This document shows positions 44,365-51,471 of a DNA stretch of 64,000 nucleotides, one piece after another. This DNA comes from Marivivens geojensis (GTDB taxonomy: Bacteria; Pseudomonadota; Alphaproteobacteria; Rhodobacterales; Rhodobacteraceae): the NCBI RefSeq assembly GCF_023540835.1, contig NZ_JALKCU010000004.1, positions 1 through 64,000 of the forward strand, read 5' to 3'. Below the pieces are notes generated by a model, which was given only the letters and a program-made list of their open reading frames with translations, made no database searches and was not told the DNA's origin. Numbering within the stretch: position 1 is the first letter of the stretch; the number at the start of each line of letters is the position of its first letter. The position numbers and the translations under genes are program-made.

Positions 44365-45434
44365 CCCCCCACATCATCGCCGCCCGCCGCACTATCGTCG
44401 CCCCCAAGGGTGGCGCATTGTCGGGATACGCGCTGCACGACCTAGCTGCACCTGTGATACTGGCCTGCCTCGCGGACGCTGGATTACGCCCCGAGGACGT
44501 GGACGAAGTTATCCTATCGAATGCCATTGGCGGCGGTGGCAATCCCGCCCGTGTCGCCGCACTCGCCGCTGGTCTGCCTACGCGCGTTGCTGGCCTGTCG
44601 ATTGATCGACAGTGCGCGGGTGGCCTCGATGCGATTGGGATTGCGATGGCGTTGGTGCGCTCTGGTCAGGCCAAGGTCGTTTTGGCGGGCGGCGCAGAGT
44701 CTCACTCGCAACGCCCGATCCGCATGGCGCAAACGCCCGATGGTCCCGTGGCCTACGACCGCCCTCCATTCACCCCATGGCCCGACCGTGACCCTGACCT
44801 AGCCGAGGCCGCGAATGCGCTGAACGTGCCTCGTGAACGGCAAGATGCTTGGGCCATTGATAGCCATGAAAAAGCGGTCTCTGCCCGCACGGCGCTTCGG
44901 TTTGAAATCGTTCCCTTGGGCAACGAACTGGACGATCCGTTCACGCGCCGCCTCGCCCCGCGTTTGGTTGCCCGCGCCTCCGTGGTCACCGGAGAGTTGA
45001 CAGCTGTCAACACCGCCGTGGCTGCCGATGCTGCCGCCTTCTGCCTTGTCGTCGCAGAGGACGTTCTGCCCGACCGCAACGCGCTGATGCTCGCTGACTA
45101 CGCCTGCGTTGGCGGCGATCCGATGAACCCCGCACTGGCTCCGATTTCAGCGATTAAAGCCGTCACAGATGCCGCCGTCGATCAAGTCGAGATGATGGAG
45201 GCCTACGCGGCCCAAGCCATAGCGTGCGTTGAGGGCGCAGGGATAGACCCACGCACCGTCAACCTCAAAGGTGGCGCGTTGGCTCGTGGTCATCCGATTG
45301 GGGCCTCTGGCACGATCCTCATGGTCCGCCTTTACCACGACCTTGCGGGGACAAATCGCACAGGATTGGCCGCAATCGCAGCGGCGGGCGGCATCGGGTC
45401 AGCGATCAAAGTGCAGGGTTTTGGAAAAAGTTGA
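44361..45434 (+). CDS. Degenerate thiolase-family protein
   Basis: 357 residues against the usual 390. The nucleophile is kept as C85 in DRQCAGGLDAIGIA, and the His in ARGHPIGASGTIL. The NEAFA motif reads MEAYA, and the C-terminal C-x-G-G-G segment reads AAIAAAGGIGSA, so the Asn and the second catalytic Cys are missing. It may not act as a normal biosynthetic or degradative thiolase. A parS-like palindrome (44996-45011) lies inside the gene and another covers its stop. Confidence 0.8.
   Translation: MTPHIIAARRTIVAPKGGALSGYALHDLAAPVILACLADAGLRPEDVDEVILSNAIGGGGNPARVAALAAGLPTRVAGLSIDRQCAGGLDAIGIAMALVRSGQAKVVLAGGAESHSQRPIRMAQTPDGPVAYDRPPFTPWPDRDPDLAEAANALNVPRERQDAWAIDSHEKAVSARTALRFEIVPLGNELDDPFTRRLAPRLVARASVVTGELTAVNTAVAADAAAFCLVVAEDVLPDRNALMLADYACVGGDPMNPALAPISAIKAVTDAAVDQVEMMEAYAAQAIACVEGAGIDPRTVNLKGGALARGHPIGASGTILMVRLYHDLAGTNRTGLAAIAAAGGIGSAIKVQGFGKS
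44996..45011. repeat. parS-like palindrome 1 (inside the thiolase gene)
   Basis: GTTGACAGCTGTCAAC, a perfect 16-bp palindrome, identical to the core of the copies around repABC. Here it encodes LTAVN within the thiolase. Its exact match and closeness to the others suggest a real centromere site rather than chance. Confidence 0.6.
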
Positions 45435-45448
45435 CAGCTGTCAACTTT
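45427..45448. repeat. parS-like palindrome 2
   Basis: A perfect 22-bp palindrome: the 16-bp core GTTGACAGCTGTCAAC with AAA and TTT arms. The thiolase TGA stop (45432-45434) lies inside it. Probable RepB/ParB binding site. Confidence 0.8.
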
Positions 45449-45461
45449 CGGATCGGCTGGC

Positions 45462-45483
45462 AAAGTTGACAGCTGTCAACTTT
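45462..45483. repeat. parS-like palindrome 3
   Basis: A second perfect 22-bp copy, 35 bp from copy 2 centre to centre, in the same orientation-neutral form. The TGA stop of the nitroreductase on the minus strand (45476-45478) lies inside it. Confidence 0.8.
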
Positions 45484-46147
45484 CAAACCCACGGAAGGTC
45501 GCAAAGACATCCAACGGGTCACGTTCTGTCCTGAAATCGTTCACTGGGTGGTGCGCCGCATAGCCAATCGCAACGCCTGCGACGACCATTTCATCGGCAT
45601 CCAACCCAAGATGATCATGGACCAGATCACCGTAGTTCGCCATCGCACCAATCCCACAAGCTGCCAACCCCGCATCATGCACGGCGAGCAACATCGTCTG
45701 GATCGCCATCCCGAGGTCCATAAAGCACCCCGCGCCCATATCGCGATGGATCGTAACGATCATACCGACGGGCGCTCCAAAGAAACGGTAATTGTGCTGA
45801 AACTGCGCCTTTCGCCCTTCAAGGTCGCGCTTTTCGATACCCAAAGCATCATAGAGCGCGAAACCAGCCGCTCTCTGACGGGCTTTTAGATCGGCGGGCA
45901 TGGGGCGCGGGAAGTAGCTGTATTCACTGACTTGAGGCCGACCTGCGGCAATCCCGTCGAGGAGTGCATCAGATAAGGACTTCAACGGCGCGCCCGTCAG
46001 GGCATGGAACCGACCAGGCTGAAGGTTCGCACCCGAAGGCGCACAACGGGCCAAGGTCAAAATCGTCTCTAATACAGCGCGATCCACGGGTTTATCCGTG
46101 AACGCACGAACCGAACGACGATCCTCTATGGCCCGCCGCGTTTCCAT
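45476..46147 (-). CDS. Nitroreductase-family FMN protein
   Basis: 223 residues. The N-terminal RRAIEDRRSVRAFTDKPVDRA binds FMN phosphate, and ARCAPSGANLQPGRFHAL and GLAACGIGAMANYGDLVHDHLGL are standard for the fold. It reduces nitro or quinone compounds with NAD(P)H. The ATG shares its A with the bioY stop (TAATG), so it is the last gene of the bioMNY operon, an unusual partner. Confidence 0.88.
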   Translation of the reverse strand: METRRAIEDRRSVRAFTDKPVDRAVLETILTLARCAPSGANLQPGRFHALTGAPLKSLSDALLDGIAAGRPQVSEYSYFPRPMPADLKARQRAAGFALYDALGIEKRDLEGRKAQFQHNYRFFGAPVGMIVTIHRDMGAGCFMDLGMAIQTMLLAVHDAGLAACGIGAMANYGDLVHDHLGLDADEMVVAGVAIGYAAHHPVNDFRTERDPLDVFATFRGFES

Positions 46148-46698
46148 TACTGACGCGACAAAAGGCTCTGCGGACGGGCCTTAACCAAGGCACCAATCAC
46201 AATGGCCGTCAGGACAACTTTGACCAAATCACCGGGGATGTAGGTAGCCATGATGGTGATAGACGCCATCAAACCCTTGTCCGTGAGCATCCAAAAACCG
46301 CCGATGCCCATAGCATAAAGCACCACAATCCCACCGATCAGCGATGCGATGCCGGATGAAACCATCGCATCAATGCGCAGCGACTGCATCACGAGGCCCG
46401 TTACAAAGGCAGCCACCGGAAAACCAACAACAAATCCTGCAGTCGGCGAGACGAACACACCCAAACCGCCGCGTCCGCCAGCCAGCAATGGAAGCCCCAA
46501 AGCGACGAGGCCGATGAACAACAGCATCGACAAACCACCGCGTTTTGCGCCCAAAACGGCACCAGCGAGCATCACGCCAAGGCTCTGCGCTGTCACAGGA
46601 ATGCCCCACGGCATCGGAATCGCAGGCAGAAGCCCTAAAACCGCAACGAGCGCAGCAAAAAGCGCGATCATCACGAGGTCGTTTTCTTTGGTTTGCAT
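46147..46698 (-). CDS. bioY: Biotin transporter S component
   Basis: 183 residues with six hydrophobic segments. The BioY pattern is seen in LGLLPAIPMPWGIPVTAQSLGVMLAGAVLGAKRGGLSMLLFIGLVALGLPLLAGGRGGLGVFVSPTAGFVVGFP. It binds biotin and works with the BioM ATPase and BioN transmembrane unit encoded just upstream. It lies 30 bp from the bioN stop. Confidence 0.94.
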   Translation of the reverse strand: MQTKENDLVMIALFAALVAVLGLLPAIPMPWGIPVTAQSLGVMLAGAVLGAKRGGLSMLLFIGLVALGLPLLAGGRGGLGVFVSPTAGFVVGFPVAAFVTGLVMQSLRIDAMVSSGIASLIGGIVVLYAMGIGGFWMLTDKGLMASITIMATYIPGDLVKVVLTAIVIGALVKARPQSLLSRQ

Positions 46699-46728
46699 GA
46701 TATATCCCCCTATTTGCGGGCTGACATA

Positions 46729-47343
46729 TCAGGGTTTGAACGCCCCATCTAGTCCACCACGCGCCCGCAGAGCGAGCGCCACATGGTCCGCATCCTCCAG
46801 AACGCTAATGATCAGCGGTAGAATGATGTAAAACGTCGGCCGTTTGGTCGAACGCGCACGGAAGGCATCCGACATATGATTGGCCCGTTCCAACAGGACA
46901 GGCACAAACCGAACGACCAACGCGATAGAAAGAGCTAGAGGCTTGGGTGACAAACCGACAAAGCGGGCAGGGGAGGCGAGCCAGATCACGAGGTCAATCA
47001 GATCGTCCAATCGGGTCGAAAGCGTCACTAAATTGGCCAAACTCACAGCAGTTGCCAACCGCAACACAATCGCAAATCCTGTCACGGGATCACCCAGAAC
47101 AATCTGCCAGAGCAGGATAAACCCAAGGAAAAACCGCAGCGGCTTTAGCATCCTGAGCCCGTGGGCAGCAAATTTAGTCCCAAATGCAAAGTAGAGTAGG
47201 GCAGTGAGACCCGCGGCGCCGGATAGTAAAATAGGTGAATTCAGCAGGAATAGGGTCACAATTGCGATAGATAACAAGCCTAGTTTGATGCCCGCGCGCC
47301 AGTCATGCAGCGGTGTACGGATTTCAGAGGTGAGTGTCAGCAT
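46729..47343 (-). CDS. bioN: Biotin transporter T component (EcfT type)
   Basis: 204 residues with four or five hydrophobic segments and the ECF coupling motifs with Ala-Arg-Gly near the C-terminus (ARSTKRP and ALALRARGG), which contact the ATPase. Its start overlaps the end of bioM by 20 bp. Together with BioM and BioY it makes a dedicated biotin ECF transporter, as is usual in Rhodobacterales. Confidence 0.9.
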   Translation of the reverse strand: MLTLTSEIRTPLHDWRAGIKLGLLSIAIVTLFLLNSPILLSGAAGLTALLYFAFGTKFAAHGLRMLKPLRFFLGFILLWQIVLGDPVTGFAIVLRLATAVSLANLVTLSTRLDDLIDLVIWLASPARFVGLSPKPLALSIALVVRFVPVLLERANHMSDAFRARSTKRPTFYIILPLIISVLEDADHVALALRARGGLDGAFKP

Positions 47344-48022
47344 CCTCAGCCTCCATCACACGCAAATAGTCGGGCAAAACGGTATAGGGGGTACCATCAG
47401 CGATGACTTTACCCGCTTCGATCCAGATCACACGATCATAATCAGCAATAATTGAAGGATCATGAGTGATATGAATCAGTGTCTGATCTAGCTGATTTAG
47501 TCTCTTTTGGAGCGCTCTCGTGGTCGGAATATCCAACCCGCTGAATGGTTCGTCTAAAATGATCACAGCTGGGGCCATGGCGAGGACCGACATAAGGCAC
47601 ACAAGGTGGCGTTGCCCCTGACTTAGGGTCGAAACAGGCCGCTTTGCCCAATCCGATTTGCCAAAATTAGCCAGAAGATTGGACGTTTCTTCTGCCGCAT
47701 CCGGTTTCGAACGGCCGAGCTGTCGCAGTCCGAAAGATATTTCCTCTTCAACGGTCGGGAAAATGATCTGATGATCTGGATTCTGGAACAAAATGCCCAC
47801 AGCAGACAGCGCTGCCTTTCGATCCTTCAGAACATCAACACCATTTATCAGAATTCGACCCTGTTCTGGACGTATTAGACCCGAAATTGCCTTTGCCAGT
47901 GTCGATTTTCCCGATCCATTGCGTCCTACAATTGCCACCCGCGCCTCCGATAGTTCGAGGGTTACCGTGTCGAGGACAGCTTTGTCGCCGTAGTGGCATG
48001 AGAGGGATTGAATTTGGATCAT
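47324..48022 (-). CDS. bioM: Biotin transporter ATP-binding component
   Basis: 232 residues. Walker A GRNGSGKS, Q-loop in FQNPDHQIIF, signature LSQGQRHLVCLM and Walker B VIILDEPFSGLD are all in order, with the H-loop in LIHITHDPS. First gene of bioMNY-nitroreductase, 55 bp after the repC stop. A parS-like palindrome lies between repC and bioM. Confidence 0.93.
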   Translation of the reverse strand: MIQIQSLSCHYGDKAVLDTVTLELSEARVAIVGRNGSGKSTLAKAISGLIRPEQGRILINGVDVLKDRKAALSAVGILFQNPDHQIIFPTVEEEISFGLRQLGRSKPDAAEETSNLLANFGKSDWAKRPVSTLSQGQRHLVCLMSVLAMAPAVIILDEPFSGLDIPTTRALQKRLNQLDQTLIHITHDPSIIADYDRVIWIEAGKVIADGTPYTVLPDYLRVMEAEDADTHL

Positions 48023-48065: not shown

Positions 48066-48083
48066 AGTTGACAGCTGTCAACT
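48066..48083. repeat. parS-like palindrome 4
   Basis: A perfect 18-bp palindrome with the GTTGACAGCTGTCAAC core. The repC TGA stop (48078-48080) lies within it, so it marks the end of the replication gene and sits upstream of bioM. Confidence 0.8.
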
Positions 48084-49199
48084 TTGTCGGCGAGCGAGGG
48101 CAATGATCATGGGCATTGGTGAAAATCCGCCTTCTTCGGCCTTTTGAGTTAATCGGCGAAGATAACCACCAGGGGATTTTATTTCCCCCATGCGCTGTAG
48201 AATACCCGCACAGACCACAGAGGTGTTTTTAGGCCCCATGATTTTCATGGCATGTTCCCACGTTTCGGCAGAGATACCCATCATGGCTTTGATGACTGAC
48301 ATTGCCGAAATGAAATCGTGCCAACTGCGGAGCGGTCTATTGGTAAAATCCGCGACGTCTGGACAAGCAGTTAAGACCATGGGCAATGGTACTGTGCTTT
48401 GTTCAGATTCATTGGAAGTGTTATTTGAATTAGATTGGTGGCGTTCATTTTGGCTGTCGGTGCCGCTCATTTCTGGTGTTTTACCAACAGCCATTCCCAG
48501 CAATTGATGCAGGTTTTCCACAAGAGCATGGAGTCGTGTTTTAAGCGAAGTTAGTGTCGAAATGTCCAATTTTCGGCGGAGCATTTTACCAAGTTCGATC
48601 AGGGCTTCTCGAGGTTTCGTCCAGCGTTCGTCGGCGTGATCTTCCATGCCGAAACTGATCAATTTGTCAGCGTCGCGTTTTAGGATAACGACTGTATCGC
48701 GCAGTTCTTTTTTTTGCGCGTCTTCTTCGCGAATTTTGCTGGCTGTTTCGATGATTTCGTCAGCGCGCACCAAAAGAGGTCGCAGATCAAAGCCGTAGGC
48801 TCGTAGAACACCCGTTCTGCTTTTTACGGCGTAGCGTTTACCATTCGGGCTATCATTGCGCAGAATGATACCGGCCTCGACCAGCGCCGCGATATGACGG
48901 CGCAACGTGCTCTCTGGCATTCCATGAGCACGGGAAGACAGCGTTTCGTTGGACGGAAACACAATCAATTGTTCAGACGTGGAAAGGTCATCACCGCGGT
49001 GAAAGGTTAACAGAGCGTTCAAGACCGTCAGATCGCGGTCAGAGAGCCCAAATTCCTTACGTGCGGTGCACAGTTCGCGGAAAAGTTCCCATTTATTGGC
49101 GGTCGGAAGGGCAGGGGCCTGTTGGCGAAGGGCGGCGCGTTCAATCAAACCAGCCGTTACCGGTCGCCGCCCGAAAGGCGTCGTTGCGTAAATGTCCAT
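48078..49199 (-). CDS. repC: Replication initiator RepC
   Basis: 373 residues. The N-terminal half has the RepC winged-helix layout (FGLSDRDLTVLNALLTFHRGDD, LIVFPSNETLSSRAHGMPESTLRRHIAALVEAGIILRNDSPNGKRYAVK). The C-terminal half (SWHDFISAMSVIKAMMGIS, GGYLRRLTQKAE) matches the family. RepC starts replication, usually at an origin inside its own gene. It is last in the repABC operon, 186 bp after repB, with the ctRNA region between. Confidence 0.94.
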   Translation of the reverse strand: MDIYATTPFGRRPVTAGLIERAALRQQAPALPTANKWELFRELCTARKEFGLSDRDLTVLNALLTFHRGDDLSTSEQLIVFPSNETLSSRAHGMPESTLRRHIAALVEAGIILRNDSPNGKRYAVKSRTGVLRAYGFDLRPLLVRADEIIETASKIREEDAQKKELRDTVVILKRDADKLISFGMEDHADERWTKPREALIELGKMLRRKLDISTLTSLKTRLHALVENLHQLLGMAVGKTPEMSGTDSQNERHQSNSNNTSNESEQSTVPLPMVLTACPDVADFTNRPLRSWHDFISAMSVIKAMMGISAETWEHAMKIMGPKNTSVVCAGILQRMGEIKSPGGYLRRLTQKAEEGGFSPMPMIIALARRQS

Positions 49200-49245
49200 A
49201 GTTTATCACGGAGCAAAACTTTTTTGCCCGCCAGATTCGACGCCT

Positions 49246-49261
49246 GTTGACAGCTGTCAAC
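49246..49261. repeat. parS-like palindrome 5 (repB-repC intergenic)
   Basis: GTTGACAGCTGTCAAC, perfect 16-bp copy, 47 bp upstream of repC. Its TTGACA on the plus strand also serves as the -35 box of the predicted ctRNA promoter. Confidence 0.8.
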
Positions 49262-49275
49262 TTTAGCCTGATATT
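49247..49275 (+). promoter_or_regulatory. Predicted ctRNA promoter
   Basis: TTGACA at 49247-49252 and GATATT at 49270-49275 with a 17-nt spacer, on the strand opposite repABC. A start near 49282 would give an RNA ending at the hairpin below. The -35 is part of a parS-like palindrome. Confidence 0.6.
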
Positions 49276-49281
49276 CGGAAG

Positions 49282-49337
49282 TGCTAAAACACGAATAGGG
49301 CTCTCTGAGGTATCTGCTTTGGGGGGCCTTTTTCTTT
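49282..49337 (+). ncRNA. Predicted counter-transcribed RNA (ctRNA, incA type) of repABC
   Basis: In repABC plasmids a small antisense RNA from the repB-repC gap lowers RepC synthesis. Here, on the antisense strand, a hairpin (AGGGCTCTC at 49297-49305 with GGGGGGCCT at 49321-49329, one bulged G and some G-U pairs, 15-nt loop) is followed by TTTTTCTTT. With the promoter above, the RNA would be about 56 nt, the size known for this class. The hairpin would act both as terminator and as target loop. Confidence 0.65.
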
Positions 49338-49385
49338 GGGTTTTGCTGGGTCGTGCCTCCTAAGTTGTTGTTGCTGCTCTATTAT

Positions 49386-50282
49386 TCAGCCGTTCGATTG
49401 TTTCCAATCGCGGTGAATTTCTTTCAGATGCTCTACCAACCAATCGTCAAAGCCGTCTTTGGGGAGGGTGAGCACTGTTTTATTCGGTTTACGGGCAACC
49501 TGCGCGATCTCTGCACCGTTGGCGGTGATCCGGTTCGGTTTGGCTGCGGGCGTTTTGGGCAAGGTTAGAGACTTAAAAACCGCCTCGAACCGTTCATCCG
49601 ATCCTTCGCCAACCGCGTTGGCGGTGAGATCCCGACCGTTGAGCTGATCGGCAAGTTTGCTCCACCGATCGCGGCCGATAGAGGGCGCTGCACCGATGGC
49701 TTCGATCAGGGACAGGGGAATCGAGTCGACAATCGACAGCATCCGCGAAATCACGGTTTTATCGACGTTGAGCGCGTCGCAGATCACCTTGCGTTCGTAA
49801 CCAGCGTCCCGCATCTGGCGGGCAAAGTTGGCGCGTTCGATGAATGACAGATCGCGACGGGCAGAGTTTTCCTGACCCTGAGCAATCACCAGTTCACGGT
49901 CGTTTAAGACCCTAACCATAGCCGCGATGGGCTGTTTTAGCAGTTTCAGAGCCGCAACACGCCGCCGACCATAGACCACCTGATAGCGTTCGGGGTCATT
50001 CGGGTTTGGGCGCAGCAGAACGGGGACTTGTTGCCCGTAAAGTTTAATACTTTCGGCGAGGGCAGGGATGTCATCTGTTTCCAGACGGTCCTGCATTCCC
50101 GCATCGTCGATCATCCGCGGATCAACCTGAATGATCGAGCGGGATTTGAGTTCGGCGATGGATTGGCTGACCGCGCCGATAGCACCTTTGCCGTATCGGG
50201 GTTTGGACGGATCAACGCGGGTTTCAGTCGCGGGTGCGGCGGTGTTGTCCATTAAGTCGGTCAAAATACCTTTACGCGCCAT
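49386..50282 (-). CDS. repB: Partition protein RepB (ParB type)
   Basis: 298 residues from MARKGILTDLMDN. The ParB/RepB nuclease-like domain has GQQVPVLLRPNPNDPERYQVVYGRRRVAALK and QGQENSARRDLSFIERANFARQM, followed by the helix-turn-helix ICDALNVDKTVISRMLSI. It binds parS palindromes. It overlaps repA by 11 bp. The longer frame from 50309 is less likely. Confidence 0.94.
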   Translation of the reverse strand: MARKGILTDLMDNTAAPATETRVDPSKPRYGKGAIGAVSQSIAELKSRSIIQVDPRMIDDAGMQDRLETDDIPALAESIKLYGQQVPVLLRPNPNDPERYQVVYGRRRVAALKLLKQPIAAMVRVLNDRELVIAQGQENSARRDLSFIERANFARQMRDAGYERKVICDALNVDKTVISRMLSIVDSIPLSLIEAIGAAPSIGRDRWSKLADQLNGRDLTANAVGEGSDERFEAVFKSLTLPKTPAAKPNRITANGAEIAQVARKPNKTVLTLPKDGFDDWLVEHLKEIHRDWKQSNG

Positions 50283-51471
50283 TGGTCCGCCCCCATGCCT
50301 CTTGAACAAGTGTCTCTATTTCACCGCAAACGGCTGAAATACTCTCAATCGCGCGGTCATAGGTCGACCGCGTGAACTGGGCCTTTTCAATCTCCCACAA
50401 GGTTTGTTTTGTCAGGCCAGCGTCCGAAATCGCGGTCGACTTCAGCATGGTGTGGTTCAAAACATGCTCTCCGAACATGGAGCGCATGAAAGACACCATT
50501 TGGTTTTGCGGACCATCGCCCGGTTCGTAGCGGGTCACCACATAACGCAACCAGTCGTAGGACATGTCACCGCCTGCTTCGGCGACAACGCCAAGCAGGT
50601 TTGATGTCATCAATAGGAATTGACACATCGACATAACGTCGAGCATCTGCGGGTGAACCGTCACTAATACGGCGGTAGCGGCCGATAGGGCCGACATTGT
50701 TAAGAACCCCAACTGGGGCGGGCAGTCTACGATAACCACGTCATAATCCTCTTCCACATCAGCGAGCGCGTCGCCCACTCTAGTGAAAAAAAGGTTACCA
50801 TCCCGTTGGGCCAGCGCGCGGGGGGTATCGTGCTCGAACTCCATGAGGTCGAGGTTGCCCGGAATAATGTCCAGATTTCGGAAGTAAGTCTTTTGAATCA
50901 CGTCACGAATTGGAACGGGGTTGTCATAGCGGATCGCGTCATAAAGCGTTCCACCGTCCAGAAGGTCGAATTCTGGCTGGAACCCGTGCAACGCCGAGAA
51001 TGACGCCTGAGGGTCGATGTCGATTGCCAAAACACGGTAACCGTCCAGCGCCATCTTCTGTGCGAGGTGGGCCGAGGTCGTTGTTTTACCAGAGCCACCT
51101 TTGAAGTTGATGACCGAAATCACCTGCAGGTGATCGCCATCGCGGCGACCGGGCATATAGGTGCCGGGAGCCTTAGCGCCTTTTTCGAGGTATTCGCGAA
51201 GAGCGACGATATCGTCTGGCGAATAATAGCGGCGTCCGTTGCCGCGGATCTCAGGCTCTGGTCCTTTGGAATCGAGACTAAGCTTGCGCAAATAGGCATC
51301 TTTGACGCCAAGAAGGTCGGCGACTTCACCACTGGTGAACTTGCGCAGCTCTTTGGTCGCGTTCGGCGGGAAAAGCTGGGCACGGTGTGCTTGCAACCGC
51401 TCTGACAGCATCGCGGCGTGTTGACCAACGATGGTATCAATACGTAGGTTTGTCTTGGGTTCTTGACCCAT
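50272..51471 (-). CDS. repA: Partition ATPase RepA (ParA type)
   Basis: 399 residues from MGQEPKTNLRID, with GAGAGGG 4 nt before. Residues 35-95 are an N-terminal DNA-binding region. The deviant Walker A is FKGGSGKTTTSAHLAQKMA, with IDIDPQASFSALHGF and VIVDCPPQLGFL following. RepA drives partition and, with RepB, represses its own operon. A GTG 30 nt upstream is an alternative start. Confidence 0.94.
   Translation of the reverse strand: MGQEPKTNLRIDTIVGQHAAMLSERLQAHRAQLFPPNATKELRKFTSGEVADLLGVKDAYLRKLSLDSKGPEPEIRGNGRRYYSPDDIVALREYLEKGAKAPGTYMPGRRDGDHLQVISVINFKGGSGKTTTSAHLAQKMALDGYRVLAIDIDPQASFSALHGFQPEFDLLDGGTLYDAIRYDNPVPIRDVIQKTYFRNLDIIPGNLDLMEFEHDTPRALAQRDGNLFFTRVGDALADVEEDYDVVIVDCPPQLGFLTMSALSAATAVLVTVHPQMLDVMSMCQFLLMTSNLLGVVAEAGGDMSYDWLRYVVTRYEPGDGPQNQMVSFMRSMFGEHVLNHTMLKSTAISDAGLTKQTLWEIEKAQFTRSTYDRAIESISAVCGEIETLVQEAWGRTNGA

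Follow-up and report, generated by a model that had tools for sequence, protein, structure and literature searches.

RepABC is described as the most abundant replicon type of alphaproteobacterial plasmids (PMC5613091). An antisense RNA (ctRNA, or RepE) and its effect on RepC have been published for other repABC replicons, and the A. tumefaciens chromid offers a precedent for a regulated ctRNA promoter (PMC11514494). The repABC centromere, parS, has the consensus GTTNNCNGCNGNNAAC according to PMC9040568. The same paper describes the closest case to the one reported here, the site parSBC in the repB-repC gap of pAMI4, which is identical in its 16 letters and lies in the same gap as ours. It is bound in vitro by pAMI4 RepB (EMSA) and stabilises a test plasmid carrying repAB; alone, it is reported to be insufficient for RepB foci or for full stability of the natural plasmid. 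A coupling of partition to replication via this site was already put forward there in 2022, and sections 5-8 of that paper and its term matches do not mention a -35 overlap. In a literature search by title and abstract, mainly of open-access papers, we found neither the exact -35 overlap nor its restriction to one parS specificity, although either may be described elsewhere.

A parS-like palindrome on the -35 of a predicted ctRNA promoter

The window analysed is a 64,000-nt stretch of Marivivens geojensis DNA (NZ_JALKCU010000004.1, positions 1 to 64,000). It contains a complete repA-repB-repC operon, with all genes on the minus strand and each product above its profile cut-off (Table 1). RepB shares 98% identity with its counterparts in M. 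donghaensis KCTC 42776 and on plasmid NZ_CP018573 (Marivivens sp. JLT3646), and is 55% identical to RepB of pAMI4. A BioY / CbiQ-type / ABC ATPase set (biotin ECF transporter, 46147-48022) separates repC from the three distal parS copies. On inspection by eye, no clear Shine-Dalgarno sequence was seen ahead of the repC ATG used here, and a minus-strand hairpin, GGGCAAAA...TTTTGCTCC, would be possible at 49210-49229, in the leader directly before repC.

Table 1. Features of the repABC region, in window coordinates
Feature	Coordinates	Strand	Evidence or remark
parS-like copy 1	44996..45011	.	exact match; inside thiolase ORF
parS-like copy 2	45430..45445	.	exact match; overlaps thiolase ORF stop codon
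parS-like copy 3	45465..45480	.	exact match
parS-like copy 4	48067..48082	.	exact match; overlaps repC 3' end
repC (initiator)	48078..49199	-	NF040974, 432.2 bits (cut-off 150)
GATTC (GANTC, CcrM-type site)	49234..49238	.	just upstream of palindrome copy 5
parS-like copy 5, GTTGACAGCTGTCAAC	49246..49261	.	exact match; repB-repC gap; equals parSBC of pAMI4 (PMC9040568)
-35 box TTGACA, predicted ctRNA promoter	49247..49252	+	within palindrome copy 5; in relatives at the same position relative to -10 and ctRNA
-10 box GATATT	49270..49275	+	spacer 17 from TTGACA; register uncertain by about 1 nt on alignment with relatives
Predicted ctRNA (RepE-like)	49282..49335	+	hairpin fold, stem changes in the clade, sub-threshold RF00489; both ends estimated
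ctRNA terminator hairpin, then T-tract	49297..49330	+	fold and terminator scan
repB (ParB-type)	49386..50282	-	TIGR03454, 294 bits (cut-off 201.5)
repA (ParA-type)	50272..51471	-	TIGR03453, 639.5 bits (cut-off 348.45)

Five exact copies of the 16-bp palindrome GTTGACAGCTGTCAAC, all fitting the repABC parS consensus, lie near the operon, versus 0.31 expected in the window (shuffles, with up to three mismatches allowed). A scan for GTT..C...G..AAC that allowed one mismatch gave 28 matches versus 25.6 expected, a chance result; this pattern is a 15-mer and the real motif is one base longer. Since copies 1 and 2 lie within, and at the stop of, a thiolase ORF, centromere copies there would constrain the coding sequence. 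The 3.18-Mb genome has a sixth exact copy on a different contig (L202:4874, or G000:C14:98873), within an ORF (L202:4485-5129) whose NGIGVWTAE stretch we take as suggesting a DNA glycosylase; this copy is perhaps unrelated to the plasmid.

We confirmed that copy 5 lies over the -35 of the predicted ctRNA promoter. The plus-strand TTGACA of this copy stands 17 nt ahead of GATATT exactly as the preliminary description had it, and the pair, with 10 of 12 consensus letters, is the sole sigma-70-like match on either strand between 48900 and 49700 (0.3 expected). Downstream, the predicted hairpin folds at -24.2 kcal/mol (z -3.5), and none of 200 shuffles folded equally well; the terminator scan by itself is at chance (one found versus 1.0 expected). 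The hairpin and its T-tract end about 48-56 nt past the estimated +1 near 49282, which agrees with the distance proposed earlier. Rfam gave no match at the gathering threshold. At a lax E-value, ctRNA_p42d (RF00489) aligned to 49294-49340 on the plus strand with 19.0 bits (E 0.12), below the gathering score of 50 bits that marks members of this family, and an unrelated snoRNA model scores 19.7 bits in the same stretch. Judged by its sequence, this plus-strand promoter-hairpin unit is a predicted ctRNA of the RepE kind: it is antisense to the repB-repC leader, ends in a terminator hairpin, and has a sigma-70-like promoter at a place that is conserved in relatives.

Distribution and register of the gap palindrome in relatives

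We compared the locus with RepB matches listed from 390 genomes of the order, plus further fetched loci; the matches reach down to about 258 bits, with weaker RepB groups outside the set. With the window included, 159 sequences gave 153 operons with a repB-repC pair (6 of the 159 had none under the pairing rule), and these rows do not form an independent sample, L035/L104 and L036/L110 being the same contigs under two names each. According to the perfect palindromes found within the operon or downstream of it, rows were typed as GAC (TTGACAGCTGTCAA, 40 rows), GTC-AGCT (33), CCAC-CGCG (21), CAC (18), GTC-CGCG (11) and GCCC (1), and 29 received no type. One of the 40, L084 (G169:C26), is a doubtful GAC row: its RepB falls in the GTC-AGCT clade and agrees with it at 15 of 16 discriminating columns. 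There are two GAC palindromes, at a distance of about 3.5 kb downstream of its repC; the contig also carries a second repB and is possibly a composite plasmid.

Among the matches listed, a perfect parS in the repB-repC gap was found in 28 of the 153 rows, all of GAC type with the half-site GTTGACAG. These are 28 of the 40 GAC rows; 4 more have a gap copy within two mismatches. Among the same matches, the own-type core did not occur in the gap within three mismatches in any of 84 rows of other assigned types (three rows at four mismatches). Three of the other 125 rows have another perfect 12-letter palindrome in the gap, none of parS type.

The -35 itself is far more widespread. A TTGAC -35 was found in the gap of all GTC-AGCT (33/33), GTC-CGCG (11/11), CCAC-CGCG (21/21) and GCCC (1/1) rows and of 26 of 29 untyped rows, one of them doubtful (in L161 the chosen -35 looks spurious); the picking rule gives a small bonus for right-half letters and so favours a palindromic TTGAC in gaps that contain several. 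It reads GTTGACAG in 25 of 33 GTC-AGCT and 24 of 26 untyped rows. In these rows outside the GAC type, the -35 is followed by the ctRNA hairpin and carries no palindrome, except for L038, an untyped row inside the GAC clade with a one-mismatch palindrome on its -35. The preliminary description held that the palindrome supplies the -35. The overlap stands, and because most other repABC groups have this -35 with no palindrome, it is more apt to describe the palindrome as overlying a -35 that other groups possess in its absence. For the same reason, the -35 seems to be the older element, onto which the palindrome was added in the single group with half-site GTTGACAG. The CAC rows have a different promoter at the ctRNA position, with no TTGAC -35. 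In most of the 17 distinct CAC sequences (e.g. L135, L149) a block like CCGCGAATCAC...GACTTGCG was seen upstream, which may mark another kind of promoter or the binding site of a regulator.

The overlap noted in this one plasmid recurs across a single RepB clade: all 28 gap-parS rows fall within a clade of 42 rows (28 perfect of 42, among the matches listed; SH-aLRT 99). The first branch of this clade is L054 plus L078; deep placement is unsure, since the tree was built quickly and has branches flagged as long, including L078. A single gain plus inheritance explains the distribution of the gap palindrome, with only five changes of gap state within GAC rows on the RepB tree. Since TTGACA is given by construction in the 28 perfect rows, the informative part is its constant placement: every one of the 28 copies coincides with the ctRNA -35, across gap lengths of 133-320 nt. 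Accompanying -10 boxes score at least 4 in 20 of the 26 distinct sequences of these rows versus 10% of shuffles. Mean -10 scores are 3.77 on the antisense side and 1.31 on the sense side versus 2.12 in shuffles, i.e. above shuffles on the antisense side only.

The right half of the palindrome lies in the promoter spacer and is unnecessary for a -35. Over the 39 distinct clade sequences, the eight letters around the -35 show 99% pairwise identity, the right half shows 72%, and the remaining spacer shows 32%. The same right-half columns in three other groups give 35%, 52% and 47%, versus 40%, 72% and 85% for their remaining spacer, the last two groups being closely related sets. All eight right-half letters are present in 29 of the 42 clade rows, six or seven in 4, and one to four in 9. 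Of the 14 clade rows without a perfect palindrome, 5 keep at least six of the eight letters and 9 only one to four, so the feature can be absent. When GAC rows are typed by parS copies downstream of repC only, all eight letters occur in 27 of 38, versus 0 of 92 other TTGAC rows (L200, from Ketogulonicigenium, has no repC beside repB and was excluded from this comparison). A pattern of palindrome followed by ctRNA end matched in 21 of 390 genomes with no control matches; of these, visual inspection accepted 20 as ctRNA promoters and rejected one (G094:C5), and the genomes overlap those behind the RepB matches, so the sample is not independent.

The ctRNA structure is conserved as well. Among 32 distinct clade segments folded, 31 had z below -2, the exception, L047, being a mis-cut segment. 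Pairing in the 13-bp consensus stem holds in 393 of 401 cells, and 8 of its 13 pairs show two-sided changes (6 clade rows failing the terminator pattern were left out). A helix-turn-helix stretch, which we take to be the recognition helix of RepB, has T in 40 of 42 GAC-clade RepBs versus P in 33 of 33 GTC-AGCT RepBs, and the window and pAMI4 proteins both have T. Seven named plasmids have a usable gap. In four of them the -35 carries the exact palindrome (pAMI4, where the overlap is the same as in the window, the JLT3646 plasmid, pPZ04 and pcai42C), and in two a near one (Rhodovulum sulfidophilum plasmid 2 and Thioclava p4). The seventh, Cereibacter sphaeroides plasmid d, has the -35 alone in its gap and two parS copies elsewhere.

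We also looked at GANTC sites. GANTC overlaps the -10 region in 15 of 40 distinct clade ctRNA promoters, the window's promoter not being among the 15, versus 0/33, 0/21 and 0/11 in three other groups and 3/24 in untyped rows. In the A. tumefaciens chromid, GANTC is likewise described over the RepE -10 (PMC11514494). Across the whole gap GANTC is not clearly enriched (42 seen versus 36 expected from mononucleotide shuffles).

Possible roles of the overlap

We suggest, as the probable explanation, that the gap palindrome is a RepB-binding parS placed over the ctRNA (RepE) -35, through which RepB would control RepC. RepB on copy 5 would compete with sigma-70 RNA polymerase for the -35, less ctRNA would be made, and the repABC leader would escape attenuation, yielding more RepC. 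Repression of an inhibitor by RepB amounts to positive feedback, which is awkward for copy control, and for this reason we add titration to the model. RepB would also be drawn to the further parS copies around the operon, of which the window has four; as replication doubles the number of parS sites, RepB would be diluted, the ctRNA promoter freed, and RepC would fall. Titration would make the link between partition and replication a brake on copy number and not a runaway. In favour of the model are the constant register of the palindrome with the ctRNA -35 and -10, the conserved right half and ctRNA stem, and the binding of pAMI4 RepB to the identical site; against it count the clade rows and the named plasmid that lack the palindrome, and a distribution for which one gain with inheritance is enough.

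The palindrome may instead be just another centromere copy, bound by RepB for partition with an occupancy too low or too brief to carry regulatory weight at the -35. The stabilisation of a test plasmid by the gap parS of pAMI4 (PMC9040568) fits such a role, and since partition alone could maintain a gap parS, this point weighs against our model too. RepABC parS half-sites also resemble TTGACA by nature, which would make a match to the -35 in one group not very unlikely. Nevertheless, we consider a purely centromeric role unlikely: other parS types are absent from the gap (the 0 of 84 rows above, among the matches listed), and the 28 gap copies keep to the ctRNA -35 in gaps of 133-320 nt. RepB might also lower repC transcription mainly by forming a roadblock, or a spreading complex, on the repABC message, an effect opposite in sign to that in the preliminary description. 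Copy 5 does lie within the transcribed leader, and RepB bound at the repD region of pTiR10 is reported to lower repB and repC expression (PMC6090056). However, a roadblock would need no register with the -35 and -10 and leaves it unexplained, and we rate it somewhat lower still than the centromere-only role.

Two further readings are weak. In one, the palindrome would work at the RNA level, as a hairpin belonging to the attenuator of the repABC leader: the predicted fold of the leader contains it as a 6-bp stem, four clade variants (L038, L186, L064, L112) differ at the centre only with the arms kept, and the centre AGGA (L064) is absent from clade copies outside the gap. Yet the centres AGCC and AGAT do occur in copies outside the gap, 10 times and once, no two-sided arm changes were seen by eye, and the 6-bp stem is present in 0 of 67 distinct segments of other groups versus 27 of 37 in the clade (CAC rows were outside this comparison). 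We rejected a conserved RNA hairpin as the main explanation, and it is very improbable. Slimmer again is the chance that the minus-strand TTGACA, which exists since the palindrome is symmetric, serves as the -35 of an internal repC promoter. The scan of 48900-49700 found no minus-strand promoter, and we rejected this candidate on the sense-side -10 scores, which lie below shuffles.

Were occlusion of the ctRNA promoter by RepB to hold, segregation could directly adjust the rate of copying, parS incompatibility would gain a replication component, and it could be explained why one parS type alone, of those seen here, occurs in the repB-repC gap. The link between centromere and promoter is open to test by separating the halves of the 16-bp element, since the right half can be altered without touching TTGACA. 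A bolder and rather doubtful idea is that the parS specificity of the whole group was captured from the promoter. The ctRNA -35 (GTTGACAG) would predate the group, and a change of one letter per half from the sister type (TTGTCAG to TTGACAG) would have given RepB a half-site of exactly this sequence and converted an antisense promoter into a centromere that reads the RepB level and sets replication.

Comparison with known systems

KorB of RK2 is a ParB homologue, and we know of no antisense RNA in the KorB system. According to PMC11790492, this DNA-binding protein forms a CTP-dependent clamp and acts with KorA to occlude RNA polymerase at its target promoters. Unlike the action proposed for RepB, that of KorB reaches its full strength only with KorA at the core promoter. 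Omega, the ParB of pSM19035, has a parS that overlaps promoters, including that of copS, so that there a partition protein controls a copy-number gene (PMC9499535). The window shares with this type of switch the overlap of site and promoter, whereas repression by RepB is proposed. The two differ in other respects, pSM19035 being a streptococcal plasmid with an RHH-type ParB, 7-bp repeats and a different control gene, and we claim no homology between them.

Nearer to the window system, the RepE promoter of the A. tumefaciens chromid is likewise a regulated ctRNA node that sets repC, with control proposed via GANTC methylation and GcrA (CcrM/GcrA) and not via RepB (PMC11514494). The predicted ctRNA resembles RepE of pTiR10 and the ctRNA of p42d (RF00489), described as antisense RNAs of about 50 nt in the repB-repC gap with a terminator-like stem-loop, but differs in scoring below the Rfam gathering score (19.0 versus 50) and in a predicted promoter whose -35 lies inside parS. 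As in the repD region of pTiR10, a RepB site would lie inside the operon; the repD sites are between repA and repB and are reported to lower repB and repC (PMC6090056), whereas the site in the window is on the predicted ctRNA promoter. The closest match is parSBC of the Paracoccus aminophilus megaplasmid pAMI4, with the identical 16-mer in the repB-repC gap and the same arrangement of -35 and -10. The two differ in the spacing of the remaining parS copies: those of pAMI4 are found 11.5 kb downstream of repC, and in the window all four fall within about 4.3 kb of copy 5.
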